Assembly (NCBI RefSeq): GCF_000478585.1
Contig: NZ_ARWI01000001.1
Coordinates: 1,054,001-1,118,000, forward strand
DNA: 64,000 bases
Direction of reading: 5' to 3'
From: Thiomicrorhabdus sp. Kp2
GTDB lineage: Bacteria; Pseudomonadota; Gammaproteobacteria; Thiomicrospirales; Thiomicrospiraceae
Numbering within the stretch: position 1 is the first letter of the stretch; the number at the start of each line of letters is the position of its first letter. The notes below the pieces were generated by a model. The model searched no databases and was not told where the DNA came from. It saw only the letters and a program-made list of their open reading frames with translations. Of this stretch, positions 12,290 through 58,766 are shown piece after piece. A program made the position numbers and the translations under genes.

Positions 12290-13333
12290 ATGTTCAAACG
12301 TTATAACAAAGAAGTTATCGGCCTCTCAGCACTGATTGCGCTATGTTTTTCCAACCCTGTAACGGCCGCTGTTTACGCAGACTCTTTTAGTGAAGCGTAT
12401 CCAGAGTATGCAAAAGAAGTTAGCAGCTTAGAAAAACAGCTGGGCTATATCGGTAAAACCTTGCCTATCCCGCAGTTAAAAGAGGTGGCTCCAGGAGTTT
12501 ATACCTCGGTTGGTAGTATGATTTGGGGTAATCCTGGCAATTTTGGTTTTAATAACAATATGAGCGCCGTTATTTTTGAAGATGGCGTTTTTGTTTATAA
12601 CTCAGGGCCTAATGAAGCCGTTGCTTATAGCTTTCATCAGGCCTTGAAAAAGGTTACTAACAAACCCGTCAAGTGGGTGGCTATTGAGAACTACCAAGGC
12701 CACGCCAATATGGGCGCAAGTTATTGGGTAGATATTGGTGTTAAAAATATTTATTCACAAGAAGAGGCAACCAAATATTGGGACAAAAACTTCAACAAAG
12801 CTAAAGCAAGATACACACGCTCTGTAGGTACGGTGATTAATAGCCATTCTTACAATGCAACCAGTAAATACACCAGCTTTAAAGACCAAATAACCATTGA
12901 TGTGGGCAATGGCGAACAAGTTCAATTAATTAACTTTGGCGGTGGGCACACCCCAACCATGACAGGCGCTTATATTCCCTCAAAAAACATCGTTTTTAGT
13001 GGTGATTTAGGTTTTAATGAACGTTTACCAGGCCTGTTTGAAGATGGTAGTTACATTGAGTGGATGGCCTCGTTTGATAAGATGATGCGCTTGACGAATA
13101 ATGACACCATTATAATTCCTGGACACGGCAACCCAGCAAATGCACAAGTGATTAAAGTACAAACTTATGACTATTTTGTGGAGCTTGCAAATCAAGTAAA
13201 AGCGTTTATAAAAGATGGCGGCAGAGTGGATGACATTGGCACAATTGACCAATCTAAACATCAAGCAAGACCTGCCTATAAAGAGCTATACGAAAGAAAT
13301 GCCAGAAATATCTATAATGAGTTGAACAGATAG
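12290..13333 (+). CDS. Secreted metallo-beta-lactamase-fold protein with degenerate zinc site
   Basis: The 347-residue protein has a signal peptide (cleavage likely after PVTAA near residue 27) and a metallo-beta-lactamase fold. The usual HxHxDH loop is replaced by ENYQGH at 133-138, so only the last histidine (H138) remains. The later ligands H220 (GGGHT), D239 (FSGD) and H279 (PGHG) are kept. This predicts loss of the Zn1 site with possible retention of Zn2. The gene sits 12 bases behind the outer-membrane channel gene and is probably the last gene of the efflux operon, ending at a hairpin. A beta-lactamase, lactonase or quinoprotein-relay hydrolase role is possible, but the missing ligands argue against a standard activity. 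Confidence 0.8.
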   Translation: MFKRYNKEVIGLSALIALCFSNPVTAAVYADSFSEAYPEYAKEVSSLEKQLGYIGKTLPIPQLKEVAPGVYTSVGSMIWGNPGNFGFNNNMSAVIFEDGVFVYNSGPNEAVAYSFHQALKKVTNKPVKWVAIENYQGHANMGASYWVDIGVKNIYSQEEATKYWDKNFNKAKARYTRSVGTVINSHSYNATSKYTSFKDQITIDVGNGEQVQLINFGGGHTPTMTGAYIPSKNIVFSGDLGFNERLPGLFEDGSYIEWMASFDKMMRLTNNDTIIIPGHGNPANAQVIKVQTYDYFVELANQVKAFIKDGGRVDDIGTIDQSKHQARPAYKELYERNARNIYNELNR

Positions 13334-13347
13334 CTAAAAAGATAATT

Positions 13348-13369
13348 AAACCCGTTTAATAACGGGTTT
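13348..13369 (+). terminator. Hairpin ending the efflux operon
   Basis: A perfect 9-bp stem, AAACCCGTT and AACGGGTTT with a 4-base loop, lies 15 bases after the stop codon. No strong T-run follows, so termination efficiency is uncertain. Confidence 0.55.
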
Positions 13370-13440
13370 AACACGTTAATATTATTGCATTATTCTTCTT
13401 TAGAAAGCGAACCCCACAACGGCAAAACCTTGCTAAGAAC

Positions 13441-13468
13441 TTGAAATATAGATTTAATTTGTTATAAT
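13441..13468 (+). promoter_or_regulatory. Candidate sigma70 promoter of the ectABC-ask cluster
   Basis: TTGAAA (13441-13446), a 16-base spacer and a consensus TATAAT (13463-13468) stand about 290 bases before ectA. This implies a long untranslated leader. Confidence 0.55.
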
Positions 13469-13509
13469 AATTGTGATTTAATAAACTTAAAAAAATATTA
13501 TTTTATTTA

Positions 13510-13524
13510 TTGTATTTAATACAA
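13510..13524. promoter_or_regulatory. Dyad TTGTATT-T-AATACAA in the ect leader
   Basis: This perfect 15-base palindrome centres on ATTTAAT. It lies 45 bases after the -10 box and resembles the second dyad at 13719-13733. It could be an RNA hairpin or a protein-binding half of a pair. Confidence 0.3.
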
Positions 13525-13718
13525 TTTCTACTGCGTTTAGGCGCCCCCTTTCCTTAGACCTTAATAGGTCAAGTCTAATCCAGAGGATACGTCCCGAGGA
13601 ATCAATCGTTTGGTGCAAATCTTTCACGAGGCTTACTTGTGCCTATCAGAAAGTCATTTACACCCTGGTCAACGATGCATCTTTACCCATGCATATCACG
13701 CTATTTACATTGCGATTG

Positions 13719-13733
13719 GTTGATTTAATCAAC
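13719..13733. promoter_or_regulatory. Dyad GTTGATT-T-AATCAAC just before ectA
   Basis: A perfect 15-base palindrome also centred on ATTTAAT ends 25 bases before the ectA start. A GATTG/CAATC pair (13714-13718 and 13741-13745) could extend it as RNA. The ectA ribosome site is weak (AAAGAA), so folding here could affect translation. Confidence 0.35.
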
Positions 13734-13758
13734 TTAAAAACAATCAAAAGAACTTATT

Positions 13759-14289
13759 ATGGAGCCTGATACAAAAACTGCAATTTCATTTCGAACACCT
13801 AAAATCGAAGATGGACTTGCCATCTATTCGCTCATAAAGCGATCGCCCCCACTAGATTTAAACTCTAGCTACCTCTATTTTTTGCAAGCCACTCACTTTG
13901 CCGACACCTGCGTTGTGGCAGAAAAAGACAATCAAATTGTTGGCTTTGTCTCAGGCTACTTTCGGCCTGATAAAGAAGACAGTTTATTTGTTTGGCAAAT
14001 TGCTGTTTCAGATACCTGTCGAGGTCAAGGTTTAGGTCGACAATTAATCTATCACTTAATCAGAAACCAGGTTCACAGACCGATTGTGCGTGATGTGTGC
14101 TGCACCATCAGCCCCTCTAATACCGCGTCGCAAAATCTCTTTAAAAGTTTTGCAGAACAGCATGGGTTAATTGTCGAAATTACACCATTCTTAGAAAAAA
14201 CGCATTTTGGTTCAGAAGAACATGAAGAGGAAGAGCTCTACACACTTAGAGCGGCCTATAAACAAAACCTAATTAACACTTTATTTTAA
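13759..14289 (+). CDS. ectA: L-2,4-diaminobutyrate N-gamma-acetyltransferase
   Basis: The 176-residue GNAT enzyme acetylates 2,4-diaminobutyrate to N-gamma-acetyl-diaminobutyrate, the second step of ectoine synthesis, in the cytoplasm. The EctA pattern is clear: FRTPKIEDGLAIYSLIK at the start, the substrate segment DLNSSYLYFLQATHFADTC, FVSGYFRPDKEDSLFVWQIAV, and the acetyl-CoA loop R88-GQGLGR-94. Length and order (ectA, ectB, ectC) match the family. The start is an ATG with a weak ribosome site behind a structured leader, consistent with regulated expression. Confidence 0.95.
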   Translation: MEPDTKTAISFRTPKIEDGLAIYSLIKRSPPLDLNSSYLYFLQATHFADTCVVAEKDNQIVGFVSGYFRPDKEDSLFVWQIAVSDTCRGQGLGRQLIYHLIRNQVHRPIVRDVCCTISPSNTASQNLFKSFAEQHGLIVEITPFLEKTHFGSEEHEEEELYTLRAAYKQNLINTLF

Positions 14290-14311
14290 ATTTAGAAACT
14301 GGGAGACACTG

Positions 14312-15586
14312 ATGTCTTTATCAATTTTCAATCAATATGAATCAGAAGTGCGTGGCTATGTTCGCTCATTTCCGACTGTTTTCAAAACTTCAAAAATGTC
14401 CGAAATCTGGGATGAAGAAGGCAAACGCTATATCGACTTCTTTGCTGGAGCTGGTGCATTAAACTATGGTCATAACAACGATATTATCAATAGCGCCGTT
14501 ATTGATTATCTTCAAAACAATGGAATTGGTCACGCCTTGGATATGGCTACCGTCGCCAAACGTGATTTTATGGAAACGTTTGTCAACAACATTCTTAAGC
14601 CTCGTGACTTAGATTACAAGCTTCAATTTGTTGGACCAACAGGTACTAATGCCATTGAAACGGCCTTAAAAATTGCCCGTAAAGTTAAAGGCCGTAAACA
14701 GGTTATGTCTTTTACCAATGGTTTTCACGGTATGTCGATGGGTTCTTTAAGTATTACAGGTAACAGCTATTACCATGATGATAACTATGGTGTTCCAGGC
14801 TATACCTACCAGGTGCCATTCCATAATTACCTTGGTGATAAGGTCGATACCATGGCTTACCTACGTAAAATCATTGAAGATGAGTCTTCAGGAACGGAGC
14901 TTCCTGCCGCAATTGTGCTTGAAACCATTCAGGCTGAAGGTGGAATCAATGTCGCGGGTGAAGAGTGGCTACAAGCGTTAAGACAAATTTGTGATGACTT
15001 TGATATTTTAATGGTCGTTGATGATATTCAGGTAGGTAATGGCCGCTCTGGTGAGTTCTTTAGTTTTGAACGTGCAGGCGTAGTACCTGACATTGTTACC
15101 CTTTCAAAATCCATTGGCGCAGGTCACCCTATGTCATTAGTTTTAATGAAACCCGAACTTGATAAGTGGAGCCCAGGTGAACACTCTGGAACCTTCCGTG
15201 GTAACAACCTCGCCTTTGTAGCGCAAACTGCGGCTCTTAAAAAGTACTGGTCAGATGGCAGTTTTATCGAAACACTGCAAGCTAAATCAAACTTGGTACA
15301 AAAACGAATGGAACAACTGGCTTTAACCTACCCAAATTTGATTCGTGAGATTCGTGGCCACGGTATGATTTGGGGAGCTGAGTTTAAAAAACCAAAACTC
15401 ACATCACCTATCTGCGCTCAATCATTTGAAGACGGACTTATTATTGAAACGGCTGGAGCTGAAGGTGAAGTTATTAAATTCTTAGGGCCATTAGTCATTA
15501 CTGACGAACTGGTTAATGAAGGGTTTGATATTCTAGAAAACGCCATTAATAAAGTACTTAAAAAATCGCCAAACGAGGTAGCCTAA
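14312..15586 (+). CDS. ectB: Diaminobutyrate-2-oxoglutarate transaminase
   Basis: This 424-residue class III PLP aminotransferase converts aspartate semialdehyde and glutamate to 2,4-diaminobutyrate, the first committed ectoine step. The PLP site is visible as the DDIQVGNGRSGEFFSFE motif and the Schiff-base lysine K266 in TLSKSIGAGHPM. FVGPTGTNAIETALKIAR and FHGMSMGSLSITGNS are family blocks. It begins 22 bases after ectA with a GGGAG ribosome site and its TAA stop abuts the ectC ATG. Confidence 0.96.
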   Translation: MSLSIFNQYESEVRGYVRSFPTVFKTSKMSEIWDEEGKRYIDFFAGAGALNYGHNNDIINSAVIDYLQNNGIGHALDMATVAKRDFMETFVNNILKPRDLDYKLQFVGPTGTNAIETALKIARKVKGRKQVMSFTNGFHGMSMGSLSITGNSYYHDDNYGVPGYTYQVPFHNYLGDKVDTMAYLRKIIEDESSGTELPAAIVLETIQAEGGINVAGEEWLQALRQICDDFDILMVVDDIQVGNGRSGEFFSFERAGVVPDIVTLSKSIGAGHPMSLVLMKPELDKWSPGEHSGTFRGNNLAFVAQTAALKKYWSDGSFIETLQAKSNLVQKRMEQLALTYPNLIREIRGHGMIWGAEFKKPKLTSPICAQSFEDGLIIETAGAEGEVIKFLGPLVITDELVNEGFDILENAINKVLKKSPNEVA

Positions 15587-15979
15587 ATGATAGTTAGAAA
15601 CCTATATGACGACATTATTGGAACCGATGCCGATGTAGATAGTGCTCAATGGACTAGTCGCCGTTTATTGTTGGCCAAAGATGGTATGGGCTTCTCTCTG
15701 CATGACACGCTCATTAAACCGAATGAGGATTTACACCTCTGGTACAAGAACCACTTAGAAGCGGTTTATTGTATTGAAGGTGAAGGTGAGATTTACGACA
15801 AAGCCACTGGCATCACCCACCCCATTCGTGAAGGCACTGTATATGCTCTAAATGAAAATGACCAACACATTTTAAAGGCCAATAAAGGGGTACAGATGCG
15901 AATGGTTTGTGTATTCAACCCTCCAGTTACTGGGCGTGAAACCCATGACAAAGATGGTTCATATAACCTTCCAGAATAA
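15587..15979 (+). CDS. ectC: L-ectoine synthase
   Basis: This 130-residue cupin-fold dehydratase cyclises N-gamma-acetyl-diaminobutyrate to ectoine. The EctC signature is intact: MIVRNLYDDIIGTD at the start, the LHLWYKNHLEAVYCIEGEGE cupin motif, EGTVYALNENDQHIL and VFNPPVTGRE near the end. The ATG follows the ectB stop with no spacer, implying translational coupling. No ectoine hydroxylase (ectD) is found in the window, so the product is probably ectoine itself. Confidence 0.97.
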   Translation: MIVRNLYDDIIGTDADVDSAQWTSRRLLLAKDGMGFSLHDTLIKPNEDLHLWYKNHLEAVYCIEGEGEIYDKATGITHPIREGTVYALNENDQHILKANKGVQMRMVCVFNPPVTGRETHDKDGSYNLPE

Positions 15980-16004
15980 AAGTGTATCGACCATAGTTTG
16001 TGCC

Positions 16005-16026
16005 TAGGCGCTAGTAATGGCGCCTA
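16005..16026. other. 7-bp hairpin after ectC
   Basis: TAGGCGC and GCGCCTA pair around an 8-base loop, 25 bases behind the ectC stop. No T-run follows. It may stabilise the 3' end of the ectABC transcript. Confidence 0.4.
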
Positions 16027-16035
16027 CTAACCCAA

Positions 16036-16127
16036 AGAGACCTTTGCACGAGAAGATAAAACCAAAACAGTTGTAATTACATGGGTAATTGCATTTTTTT
16101 ATGTATGAATCTCGTGCAAAGCTCTCT
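16036..16127. repeat. 92-bp inverted-repeat element (MITE-like) between ectC and ask
   Basis: Terminal arms of 18 bases (AGAGACCTTTGCACGAGA and its complement ending GCTCTCT, one mismatch) enclose 56 bases that contain a second hairpin. The ends resemble terminal inverted repeats of a small non-autonomous transposon, possibly IS5-like, but no target duplication is visible. A purely structural RNA role is the alternative. Confidence 0.45.
16072..16100 (+). terminator. Terminator or attenuator between ectC and ask
   Basis: A 9-bp stem with one G-U (TGTAATTAC and GTAATTGCA around ATGG) is followed directly by seven T. It would stop most ectABC transcripts and lower expression of the downstream aspartokinase. 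It lies wholly inside the larger 92-bp inverted repeat. Confidence 0.6.
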
Positions 16128-16178
16128 CACCATATAAATACCCAAAACAATAAAATCACCAAAATGATTAAGGAAAAC

Positions 16179-17624
16179 ATGCCTACAAGCACCCCAAATA
16201 AATTAAGTGTTGAAAAAATCGGTGGCACTTCAATGTCTGACTACAACGCCGTAAAAGACAATATTGTGTTATATCCAGAATCACCGTACCAAAGAATCAT
16301 CGTTGTTTCTGCTTACGGTGGAGTGACAGATGACCTGCTTGAGCATAAAAAGTCAGGAAAACCTGGTGTCTATGGCTTATTTGCCAATGATGACACCGAT
16401 GCCAACTGGCAGGTGGCATTAAATGAACTTGCCGACAAACTAAATGAAATTAATGCCAGCCTGTTTGATGACCCTGCACTCTTAGTAAAAGCCAATAGCT
16501 TTATTAACCTGCGTATTAAAGAGACTGAGCAATTACTGACTTATCTTCAAGACTTATGTACTCATGGCCACTTTTCGCTCGATAACCACTTATTAACGGT
16601 TAGGGAACTCTTAGCCAGTTTAGGTGAAGCGCACAGTGCGTGGAATTTAACTCATCTACTGCAAGCCGAAGGTATTAACAGCCAATTTATAGACTTAACG
16701 GGCTGGAAAACCGATGCTCCTTTGTCTCTAGATGAGATGATTCAACAACAGCTGAGTGATATCAATTTTGAGAATGTTTTACCCATCGTAACAGGCTATA
16801 CCCATTGTACGGAAAATCTTATGAAAACCTACGACCGTGGTTACAGCGAAATGACCTTTAGTCGTATTGCTGTCTTATGCCAAGCAAGCGAAGCGGTGAT
16901 TCATAAAGAGTACCATTTAAGTAGCGCAGACCCTCGTCTGGTAGGTGAAGAAAACGTTGTACCTATTGGTAAAACCAACTATGACATTGCCGATCAACTG
17001 GCTAACCTTGGTATGGAAGCGATTCACCCAAAAGCCGCTAAAGGTTTACGTCAAGCGCAAATTCCATTAAGAATCAAAAATACCTTTGAGCCTGAACATC
17101 ACGGCACATTAATTAGTGAAGGTTATACCAGCACATCACCTCAAGTTGAAATCATTGCTGGACTACAACGCTTAATTGCGGTGGAAATTTTTGATCAAGA
17201 CATGATGGGTGAACAGTGTTTTTATGAACAGGCTATTCTAAATATTACTCAACGTTTAGGCTGCGATCTCATTAATAAAGACTTTAATGCCAATACCATC
17301 ACCTTATACCTTAATGATTCACTTAAAAAAGTAAACCGTTTAAAGCAACAGCTACAAAACAAATTACCTACGGCCTCAATTCAAACCAGTAAAGTCGCTC
17401 TGGCCTGTGCAATGGGAAGCGATATGCGTATTAAAGGTTTTTTATCGACCGCCGTACAGTCTCTTTACAAAAATGGCATTAATATCGAGGCGATTCACCA
17501 AAATACTCGCCAAGTTGAAATGCAGTTTTATGTAAGTGAAAACGACTATGAAAAAACCATTAATACGATGCACGAAAACCTAGTCGCAATTCATAATCAT
17601 GGGAGTGCTATATGCAAGCATTAA
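16179..17624 (+). CDS. ask: Ectoine-cluster aspartate kinase (Ask_Ect type)
   Basis: The enzyme phosphorylates aspartate to supply aspartate semialdehyde for EctB. The kinase core is seen in VEKIGGTSMSDYNAVKDNI near the N-terminus, VVSAYGGVTDDLLEHKKSG, GYSEMTFSRIAVL and KEYHLSSADPRLVGE. Two ACT-type regulatory segments lie in the C-terminal third. An open frame continues upstream to a TTG at 16089, but that would run through the inverted repeat. The ATG at 16179 has an AAGGA ribosome site and gives 481 residues, as expected for ectoine-linked aspartokinases, which family studies describe as weakly feedback-inhibited. Confidence 0.92.
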   Translation: MPTSTPNKLSVEKIGGTSMSDYNAVKDNIVLYPESPYQRIIVVSAYGGVTDDLLEHKKSGKPGVYGLFANDDTDANWQVALNELADKLNEINASLFDDPALLVKANSFINLRIKETEQLLTYLQDLCTHGHFSLDNHLLTVRELLASLGEAHSAWNLTHLLQAEGINSQFIDLTGWKTDAPLSLDEMIQQQLSDINFENVLPIVTGYTHCTENLMKTYDRGYSEMTFSRIAVLCQASEAVIHKEYHLSSADPRLVGEENVVPIGKTNYDIADQLANLGMEAIHPKAAKGLRQAQIPLRIKNTFEPEHHGTLISEGYTSTSPQVEIIAGLQRLIAVEIFDQDMMGEQCFYEQAILNITQRLGCDLINKDFNANTITLYLNDSLKKVNRLKQQLQNKLPTASIQTSKVALACAMGSDMRIKGFLSTAVQSLYKNGINIEAIHQNTRQVEMQFYVSENDYEKTINTMHENLVAIHNHGSAICKH

Positions 17625-57061: not shown

Positions 57062-57138
57062 TGGCAGGGGTAGAGAGATTCGAACTCCCAACACCCGGAT
57101 TTGGAATCCGGTGCTCTACCAATTGGAGCTATACCCCT
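57062..57138 (-). tRNA. tRNA-Trp(CCA)
   Basis: This 77-base cloverleaf has a 7-bp acceptor AGGGGTA/TACCCCT, the TTCGAAT T-loop, anticodon CCA in loop TTCCAAA and an encoded 3' CCA. It lies between tuf copy 2 and secE. Confidence 0.97.
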
Positions 57139-57153
57139 GGAGTGTTTTCACAA

Positions 57154-57179
57154 AAAAAGGGGATTATATACCCCTTTTT
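57154..57179 (-). terminator. Terminator after tuf copy 2
   Basis: AAAAAGGGG and CCCCTTTTT pair perfectly around an 8-base loop, 31 bases behind the tuf stop and before tRNA-Trp. It is symmetrical and could act on both strands. Confidence 0.8.
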
Positions 57180-57210
57180 CTGCTATAGCAAGCGCTATTT
57201 GAAACTAAAA

Positions 57211-58401
57211 TTAGTCAATAATTTTAGCAACAACACCTGCACCAACTGTACGTCCACCTTCACGGATGGCAAAACGTAAACCTTCTGACATCGCGATTGG
57301 GTTGATTAAAGTAACAGTCATTTGTACGTTATCACCTGGCATAACCATTTCTGTTCCTGCTGGTAATTCACATGCACCTGTTACGTCCGTTGTACGGAAG
57401 TAAAACTGTGGACGGTATCCGTTGAAGAATGGAGTGTGACGTCCACCTTCGTCTTTACCTAAAACATAGACTTCAGCTTCGAACTTAGTATGTGGTTTTA
57501 CAGTCCCTTTGTGTGCTAGAACTTGTCCACGTTCGATATCTTCACGTTTAGTACCACGTAAAAGAATACCTACGTTGTCACCCGCTTCACCTTGGTCAAG
57601 CAGTTTACGGAACATTTCTACACCTGTAACTGTCGTTGTTTGAGTATCGCGAATACCAACGATTTCGATCTCTTCACCTACTTTTACAACACCTGTTTCT
57701 ACACGACCAGTGGCTACTGTTCCACGACCTTGGATTGAGAAGATGTCTTCTACAGGCATTAGGAATGGCTTGTCTGTTTCACGTACTGGATCTGGGATGT
57801 AAGCATCTAGAGCGTCTACTAGACGTCCGATAGCTGGTGCTCCGATTTCTGACTGGTCATCAGCAATGGCTAGTGTTGCTGAACCAACGATAACTGGAGT
57901 GTCATCACCTGGGAATTCGTACATGTCTAGAAGTTCACGAACTTCCATCTCTACGAGTTCCATTAGCTCTTCGTCATCAACCATATCGGCTTTGTTTAGG
58001 AATACTACGATGTATGGTACACCTACCTGACGTGATAGAAGGATGTGCTCACGTGTTTGTGGCATTGGTCCGTCTGCTGCTGAACATACTAGGATTGCGC
58101 CATCCATCTGTGCCGCACCTGTGATCATGTTTTTAACATAGTCGGCGTGACCTGGGCAGTCTACGTGTGCGTAGTGACGTGTATCTGATTCATATTCAAC
58201 GTGTGACGTTGAAATCGTGATACCACGATCTCTTTCTTCTGGTGCGTTGTCAATCGATGCGAAATCTTTGATGTCTCCACCGAATTTTTTACCTTGTACG
58301 ATTGTTAATGCCGCCGTTAGAGTTGTTTTACCATGGTCAACGTGACCGATAGTCCCAACGTTTACGTGTAGCTTCGCGCGTTCAAATTTTTCTTTTGCCA
58401 T
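57211..58401 (-). CDS. tuf: Elongation factor Tu, copy 2
   Basis: This 396-residue EF-Tu has the same protein as copy 1 at 40859-42049 and apparently the same DNA sequence, base for base, over all sense codons. The surrounding DNA is unrelated on both sides and the stop codon differs (TAA here). The frame extends 11 codons upstream, but the ATG at 58401 is the family start. This is the tufB position, behind a tRNA cluster. Confidence 0.98.
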
Positions 58402-58462
58402 GATGCAAACTCCGTTATAGCGACTTATGTACAAGACATAACGACACCAAAAATAAAAAAAC

Positions 58463-58538
58463 TGGAGCTCTCATCCAGGATCGAACTGGAGACCTCATCC
58501 TTACCATGGATGCGCTCTACCTACTGAGCTATGAGAGC
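58463..58538 (-). tRNA. tRNA-Thr(GGT)
   Basis: This 76-base cloverleaf has acceptor GCTCTCA/TGAGAGC, T-loop TTCGATC, anticodon GGT in loop ATGGTAA and an encoded CCA. It lies directly before tuf copy 2. Confidence 0.97.
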
Positions 58539-58543
58539 AAATT

Positions 58544-58595
58544 AAAAAGGCCCTCTCCATCAACTTGATTTAACAAATTAACAAAGAGAGCCTTT
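58544..58595 (-). terminator. Hairpin with T-run between tRNA-Gly and tRNA-Thr
   Basis: On the minus strand AAAGGC-TCTC pairs with GAGA-GG-GCCTTT (10 bp with a 2-base bulge) around a 28-base loop, followed by TTTTT. It may attenuate transcription into tRNA-Thr and tuf, or guide tRNA processing. Confidence 0.5.
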
Positions 58596-58601
58596 GAAAT
58601 A

Positions 58602-58676
58602 TGGAGCGGGTAAGGAGAATCGAACTCCTCTCATCGGCTTGGAAGGCCGAGGTAATAGCCAATATACGATACCCGC
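58602..58676 (-). tRNA. tRNA-Gly(TCC)
   Basis: This 75-base cloverleaf has acceptor GCGGGTA/TACCCGC, T-loop TTCGATT, anticodon TCC in loop CTTCCAA and an encoded CCA. It lies 5 bases behind tRNA-Tyr. Confidence 0.97.
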
Positions 58677-58681
58677 AAAAC

Positions 58682-58766
58682 TGGTGGAGGGTGGTGGATT
58701 CGAACCACCGAAGGCTGAGCCAGCAGATTTACAGTCTGCCCCCTTTGGCCGCTCGGGAAACCCTCC
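58682..58766 (-). tRNA. tRNA-Tyr(GTA)
   Basis: This 85-base class II tRNA has the long variable arm, acceptor GGAGGGT/ACCCTCC, T-loop TTCGAAT, anticodon GTA in loop CTGTAAA and an encoded CCA. It is the first gene of the tRNA-tuf unit. Confidence 0.97.

Follow-up and report, generated by a model that had tools for sequence, protein, structure and literature searches.

Comparison of the regions upstream of ectA in Thiomicrorhabdus sp. Kp2 and its relatives indicates that the leader of the ectoine operon is a real, conserved RNA, which matches no catalogued family and is linked to ectA in two genera, and that it probably controls ectoine production. We consider it likely that this leader folds into a conserved multi-helix RNA (helices P0, P1, P2, P3, P4 enclosing P5, and P7), which influences ectoine synthesis in cis. 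Control of ectoine by its own leader RNA, in a lineage with no detected EctR-like gene, would represent a different route, from which an RNA part responsive to salt or osmolytes might be derived. It should be added that the element is small and present in named isolates.

The window, i.e. the whole stretch of 64,000 nucleotides that was analysed, serves as the reference for all coordinates. The following features make up the ectoine locus and its surroundings:

12290-13333, upstream gene, which ends before the gap preceding ectA
13441-13468, plus strand, sigma-70-like putative promoter of the ect operon, TTGAAA-16-TATAAT with TG before the -10
13475-13758, plus strand, structured leader of the ectABC-ask mRNA, with start placed from the promoter and a core that 29 of 62 family genomes conserve 5' of this operon's ectA
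13759-14289, plus strand, ectA, diaminobutyrate acetyltransferase (TIGR02406)
14312-15586, plus strand, ectB, diaminobutyrate transaminase (TIGR02407)
15587-15979, plus strand, ectC, ectoine synthase (PRK13290)
16089-17624, plus strand, aspartate kinase gene 3' of ectC (PRK09181 match from residue 38)

The promoter-like site at 13441-13468 showed 11 of 12 consensus matches, and from its position the leader would be expected to start near 13475, 284 nt before ectA, in good agreement with the initial annotation, which had put the transcript start about 285 bases before this gene. A scan of positions 12400-17400 returned 10 promoter-like sites vs 14.1 in shuffles, so that a single match is no proof of a promoter; among the relatives, 20 of 29 leaders have their best promoter-like match at a distance of 64-77 nt from helix P1, on its 5' side, a count made without shuffled control. 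A transcript from this promoter would run through the leader into ectABC-ask. Judged by its position, the aspartate kinase 3' of ectC is of the ectoine-operon type, and its true start probably lies inside the ORF. The gene just 5' of the promoter (12290-13333) resembles a SoxH-related metallo-beta-lactamase-fold hydrolase, with the match being below the curated cut-off.

DNA search against 62 genomes of the family matched 24 of them, in two of the seven genera, and 23 of the 24 matched loci carry EctA according to tblastn, with L023 being a short match not beside EctA. Covariance model R1, built from the leaders of 20 relatives, detected one copy each in 29 of the 62 genomes, representing Thiomicrorhabdus and Hydrogenovibrio (genus names were inferred), and all 29 matches were situated directly upstream of ectA. 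EctA itself was found in 43 of the 62 genomes (E<=1e-8), and R1 matched 29 of these 43; among the 19 in which EctA was not found, several being incomplete genomes, it matched none. Fourteen EctA-bearing genomes are without R1 match, namely nine of one genus with more distant EctA (identity 43-49%), one of another and four of the two carrier genera, which indicates that some lineages can do without the RNA. Inspection by eye of five of these 14 ectA upstream stretches revealed P0-, P1- and P2-like hairpins in L083 and L085, P3 in L095, almost nothing in L096 and nothing in L093; on the same five, R1 scored 19.1 bits in L095 and gave no match in L083, L085, L093 and L096. L083 and L085 (Hydrogenovibrio group) and L095 (the genus of the window) appear to be decayed relatives and look like stages of loss.

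At the class level, with strict filtering and 10 candidates per genome passed to scoring, R1 matched two of 369 genomes, both from the Thiomicrorhabdus/Hydrogenovibrio family. EctA was present in 43 of these 369 genomes, 40 of them outside the family of the window, and no R1 match was obtained at the 27 other-family ectA loci searched, which represent 27 of those 40 genomes. Pattern scan of an 84,980-species collection returned 13 stretches, 12 of which were confirmed by R1 and bore the titles Thiomicrorhabdus (8), Thiotrichales (2), Hydrogenovibrio (1) and Piscirickettsiaceae (1). The remaining stretch, L061, was not confirmed by R1 and was rejected as a chance match. A second, weak R1 match was recorded for L066 (13.8 bits, E 0.84).

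In some other bacteria, ectoine synthesis is controlled by special promoters. Its control has been attributed to repressors of the MarR type and, for Vibrio, to quorum-sensing regulators (PMC7876524, available excerpt). The MarR-type EctR/CosR repressors are similar to the ect leader in their target operon, ectABC, and in their presumed purpose, salt control (PMC7876524, same excerpt), but they are proteins acting on DNA. MarR-type EctR had also been named by the initial annotation as the known control elsewhere, and in the genomes of other families a MarR-type gene adjoins ectA in six of the nine loci with the likeliest neighbouring ORF scanned (nine of the 27), the other three ORFs being CheW once and of no family twice. 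Within the family of the window, an EctR-like gene was detected in none of the 29 carriers and in one of 62 genomes, using a single one of these neighbouring ORFs (L110) as a query at E<=1e-8, with which a divergent EctR could be missed. Since the single match belongs to a non-carrier, the RNA and EctR were not seen together in this dataset. The match in question (L126; genome G057, contig C50, positions 3-413) is a partial EctR-like MarR sequence at a contig edge in a genome of a non-carrier genus with 83% completeness, and represents either a real gene or contamination.

The secondary structure of the leader was described by the following elements:

13509-13525, plus strand, helix P0, UUGUAU/AUACAA hairpin (strand-swap test p=0.0002)
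13533-13544, plus strand, helix P1, GCGU-UUAG-GCGC, near-invariant with few compensatory outliers
13557-13570, plus strand, helix P2, GACC/GGUC hairpin (swap test p=0.0002)
13570-13581, plus strand, near-invariant linker CAAGUCUAAUCC
13579-13600, plus strand, helix P3, UCC-N3-GGA-loop-UCC-N3-GGA, near-invariant (swap test p=0.06)
13600-13609, plus strand, helix P4, 5' strand AAUCAAUCGU (swap test p=0.0002)
13612-13664, plus strand, helix P5, long nested stem, from folding (borderline swap test)
13712-13721, plus strand, helix P4, 3' strand GCGAUUGGUU (swap test p=0.0002)
13719-13733, plus strand, helix P7, GUUGAU..AUCAAC hairpin (swap test p=0.0002 / 0.001)

Alignment A1 comprised 20 leaders, with L001 (duplicate of L002), L023, L011, L013 and L014 left out. 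For pairing tests the 29 rows were reduced to 28 by dropping L047 (score same as L046), and to 27 for the swap tests by dropping divergent L054. An all-pairs covariation test (R-scape-like, on a structure-blind alignment) revealed no pair at E<=0.5 among 28 sequences, and with 24 sequences the best pair (E=1.7) was not significant. Because alignment is poor in the variable middle and the power of the all-pairs test is low, strand-swap tests were used, in which the duplex energy of the own two strands of a leader is compared with that of strands exchanged between leaders, with little dependence on the alignment. With 22 representatives (similarity ratio <0.85), own strands gave lower energies than swapped ones in P0 (-5.12 vs -3.37), P2 (-7.79 vs -6.26) and P4 (-9.95 vs -8.55), at p=0.0002 in each case, and 27 sequences with more permutations resulted in p=0.00005 for each helix. 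P7 was tested on 24 leaders, with exclusion of L035, L036, L041 and L054, which were without a sound P4 anchor, and showed -5.07 vs -3.89 (p=0.001 for 19 representatives, p=0.0002 for 24 sequences). P3 was borderline (p=0.062 for 22 representatives, 0.046 for 27 sequences), and so was P5 (p=0.015 for 27 sequences; 0.066, on repeat 0.060, for 22 representatives). The 16 valid mismatched-arm controls had p of 0.11-0.97; the other four of the 20 (the 'up' segment) were invalid due to dummy energies. As the permutations ignore phylogeny, the p-values are optimistic. Covariation among homologous leaders, the check proposed by the initial annotation, was thus not borne out by the all-pairs test, whereas the swap tests were clear for P0, P2, P4 and P7.

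Individual variants in relatives were in line with these results. By eye, P0 occurs as GCAAU/AUUGC and UGUAG/CUACA, the P2 stem is longer with both sides matching in L011, L018 and L019, and P4 reads AAUCG/CGAUU in L029 and AACCG/CGGUU in L033, while its outer end changes from A-U to G-C, giving GAUC/GGUC, in L042, L043, L045, L046, L048 and L049. P7 appears as GGU-u-GAA/UUC-ACC in L028, as GGU-c-AAAGA/UCUUU-a-ACC in L042 and as GUUGCU/AGCAAC in L051, and its hairpin folds in 19 of the 24 anchored leaders under a simple rule. Comparative data show that P0, P2, P4 and P7 keep their pairing through sequence change, as judged by permutations that ignore phylogeny. P1 and P3 rest on near-invariant sequence and a few compensatory outliers, and P5 is borderline: all 20 leaders of A1 have the four P1 pairs, of which three are invariant, and the outliers are GCGU/ACGC in L015 and L025 and GGCGU/ACGCC in L083, together with P3 as UUC/GAA in L054 (by eye). 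The long nested stem at 13612-13664 reported by the initial annotation is present and corresponds to P5.

An operator, acting at the level of the DNA, or conservation that arose by chance close to a promoter could account for an invariance that lies mostly in sequence, with formal covariation being weak. We regard this explanation as very improbable: the element is located downstream of the promoter-like site, the strands of P0, P2, P4 and P7 stay complementary while both of them change, and P2 is extended on both sides in some relatives.

The near-invariant core of the conserved RNA consists of UUUAGRCGC, CRAGUCUAAUCC and P3 (stretches UUUAGGCGC and CAAGUCUAAUCC). The lineage of L051, L052 and L053 (core near 1501-1622) retains UCUAGGCGC and a large part of what follows from P2 onward, but has another sequence in place of the 5' half with P0 and the P1 stem. 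Several segments of the core have more than one possible partner. The UUAG loop of P1 is complementary to CUAA at 13575-13578; the linker CAAGUCUAAUCC could pair with either UUUAGGC (13536-13542) or UUAGAC (13554-13559); and the hairpin at 13554-13578 has two readings, GACC/GGUC inside or UUAGAC/GUCUAA outside, both being present in the sequence, just as the initial annotation had described it with two mutually exclusive pairings.

The structure favoured by RNAalifold had a long helix (A1 columns 24-40 with 92-107) instead of P1 and P3. In A1, paired cells amounted to 96.9% for the long helix together with P2, whose covariation score was equalled in only 4 of 500 shuffles, and to 93.3% for the local helix set (0 of 500 shuffles as high), whose covariation score was not above shuffles (493 of 500 as high); slid controls were far lower, at <=49.7% and <=54.2% paired cells for the local set and the long helix, correspondingly. 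The long-helix duplex beat most shuffles in two of the three leaders tested (13, 24 and 175 of 1000 as good). Forced into either the P1 state or the UUAGGC/GUCUAA state (five pairs, part of the long helix), 18 of 24 leaders showed a difference of <=2 kcal/mol, and six a larger one. P1 and P3 were retained in the model because the divergent L083, L085 and L095 keep one without the other, and because, by eye, the long helix is disrupted in parts in L044 and L050. The long helix may represent an alternative conformer of the core.

The leader is heterogeneous in composition, with AT content of 0.897 at 13475-13532, 0.548 at 13533-13718 and 0.80 at 13719-13758. The middle, noted early on as being less AT-rich than its surroundings, is so in comparison with both flanks and lies approximately 1 sd below the mean for 186-nt stretches of the window (0.591, sd 0.041). 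The folding energy of the leader is only modestly unusual vs shuffles (z -2.25 with 4 of 200 equally good for 13475-13758; z -1.91 with 7 of 200 for 13530-13735), and it is its conservation, not folding energy, that places the leader above chance. Near the 5' end of the leader, relatives commonly carry a small AACC..GGUU hairpin with UUAUCUUUUUUUCAG or a similar sequence after it, and this hairpin is absent from the window.

Two forms of attenuation were considered and rejected. No conserved short ORF was seen in the window scan or, by eye, in the relatives, which speaks against leader-peptide attenuation. Rho-dependent attenuation was dismissed on account of the ordinary C/G in the leader middle, where no Rho-type C>G bubble was found (mean 1.24, equal to the window median of 1.24; >1.5 in 4 of 28). 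No terminator-like site was predicted on the plus strand at 12400-17400, leader included. With neither a terminator-like site nor a Rho C>G bubble, translation or mRNA stability are left as the level of control. P7 is located approximately 25-40 nt before the ectA start, which would make translation initiation the likeliest controlled step; in the window it has no overlap with the start region or ribosome-binding site, and by eye the ribosome-binding sites look weak.

GGUU at 13718-13721 is needed both by P7 and by the outer part of P4, so that the two are mutually exclusive there; in the predicted minimum-energy fold, inner P4 and P7 form together. The P4/P7 overlap is a candidate expression platform. 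The near-invariant core would be where an input is received, be it temperature, a protein, a metabolite, an osmolyte or an ion, and the output would be determined by whether GGUU completes the outer P4 end or opens the hairpin P7. A role as RNA thermometer, or as a passively stabilising leader whose fold matters with no specific sensor involved, would be compatible with the AU-rich leader start and the P7 hairpin near the start codon, but a near-invariant core would be superfluous for either, and we find this reading improbable.

The leader might alternatively be bound by a protein or a small RNA that regulates ectA translation or mRNA stability, and not be a ligand-binding RNA: CRAGUCUAAUCC is invariant with no need to pair, both it and the repeated GGA triplets would suit contact sites, and a large part of the remaining fold drifts in sequence. 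Both GGA triplets of P3 are, however, predicted to be paired, unlike those of CsrA sites, and we treat this interpretation as a tentative one.

Classes for sodium, lithium and c-di-AMP are included in Rfam 15, the c-di-AMP riboswitch family being named ydaO/yuaA. Screening of the whole window with Rfam 15 (4227 models) at the gathering threshold found nothing in the leader, and relaxing E up to 5 gave a single minus-strand match there (10.5 bits vs gathering score 60); in the loci of 20 relatives, one match (E 0.097) lay downstream of the motif, with 24 bits vs gathering 229. The sensor class sought by the initial annotation was consequently not found among Rfam 15 families. Its broader suggestion of a structured leader sensing osmotic or ionic conditions held as regards structure, conservation, linkage to ectA and retained pairing, in carriers with no EctR-like gene detected, and sensing was left without a matching class.

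Among known systems, the c-di-AMP (ydaO/yuaA) riboswitch is likewise an osmotic-stress leader RNA in other bacteria, but the ect leader does not match Rfam at the gathering or relaxed threshold. An osmotic-stress role of c-di-AMP in other bacteria is mentioned in the available part of PMC9337991. Similarly, the Na+-I riboswitch (DUF1646 motif) is a cis-acting leader RNA located partly 5' of osmoprotectant genes, from which the ect leader differs in having no Rfam match, and the main text of that paper has no occurrence of ectoine or ectA (PMC9337991, available part). The proX motif is an orphan structured leader and riboswitch candidate with an osmolyte gene downstream and translational control proposed, but it precedes a betaine transporter gene and was set apart from the ect leader by its description, not by consensus (PMC8632094, available part). 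An ectoine-gene leader RNA was not reported among the matches listed for open-licence PMC titles and abstract starts. Ectoine, ectA and Thiomicro- had no occurrences in the main text of RNA-discovery papers PMC11109978, PMC8632094 and PMC6429828, nor riboswitch and UTR in the available text of the paper on the ectoine promoter of Halomonas elongata (PMC5924526). The ect leader would accordingly be placed as an uncatalogued family among structured cis-regulatory leaders.

A riboswitch proper, the core of which would directly bind an ion (Na+, K+) or a small molecule (ectoine, diaminobutyrate or c-di-AMP), is quite possible, if short of probable. It is favoured by the complex fold, by the near-invariant core with alternative pairings whose computed energies are close, and by a biosynthetic operon downstream in every carrier examined, and Na+-I riboswitches have been reported with the osmoprotectant genes dapB, ablA and eam (PMC9337991, available part). 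It is countered by the failure of any Rfam 15 family to match and by the lack of an obvious expression platform, and one gene context in only two genera does not name a ligand. A more specific version, a riboswitch class not previously described and so far confined to Thiomicrorhabdus and Hydrogenovibrio, which would sense an ion or osmolyte directly, replace EctR and switch ectA translation via P4/P7, seems to us rather doubtful as a whole. Elsewhere in the window, Rfam identified on the minus strand an Alpha operon ribosome binding site (RF00140, 29763-29855, 47.4 bits), which represents ordinary ribosomal-protein autoregulation, and a cluster of four tRNA genes at 57065-58766.
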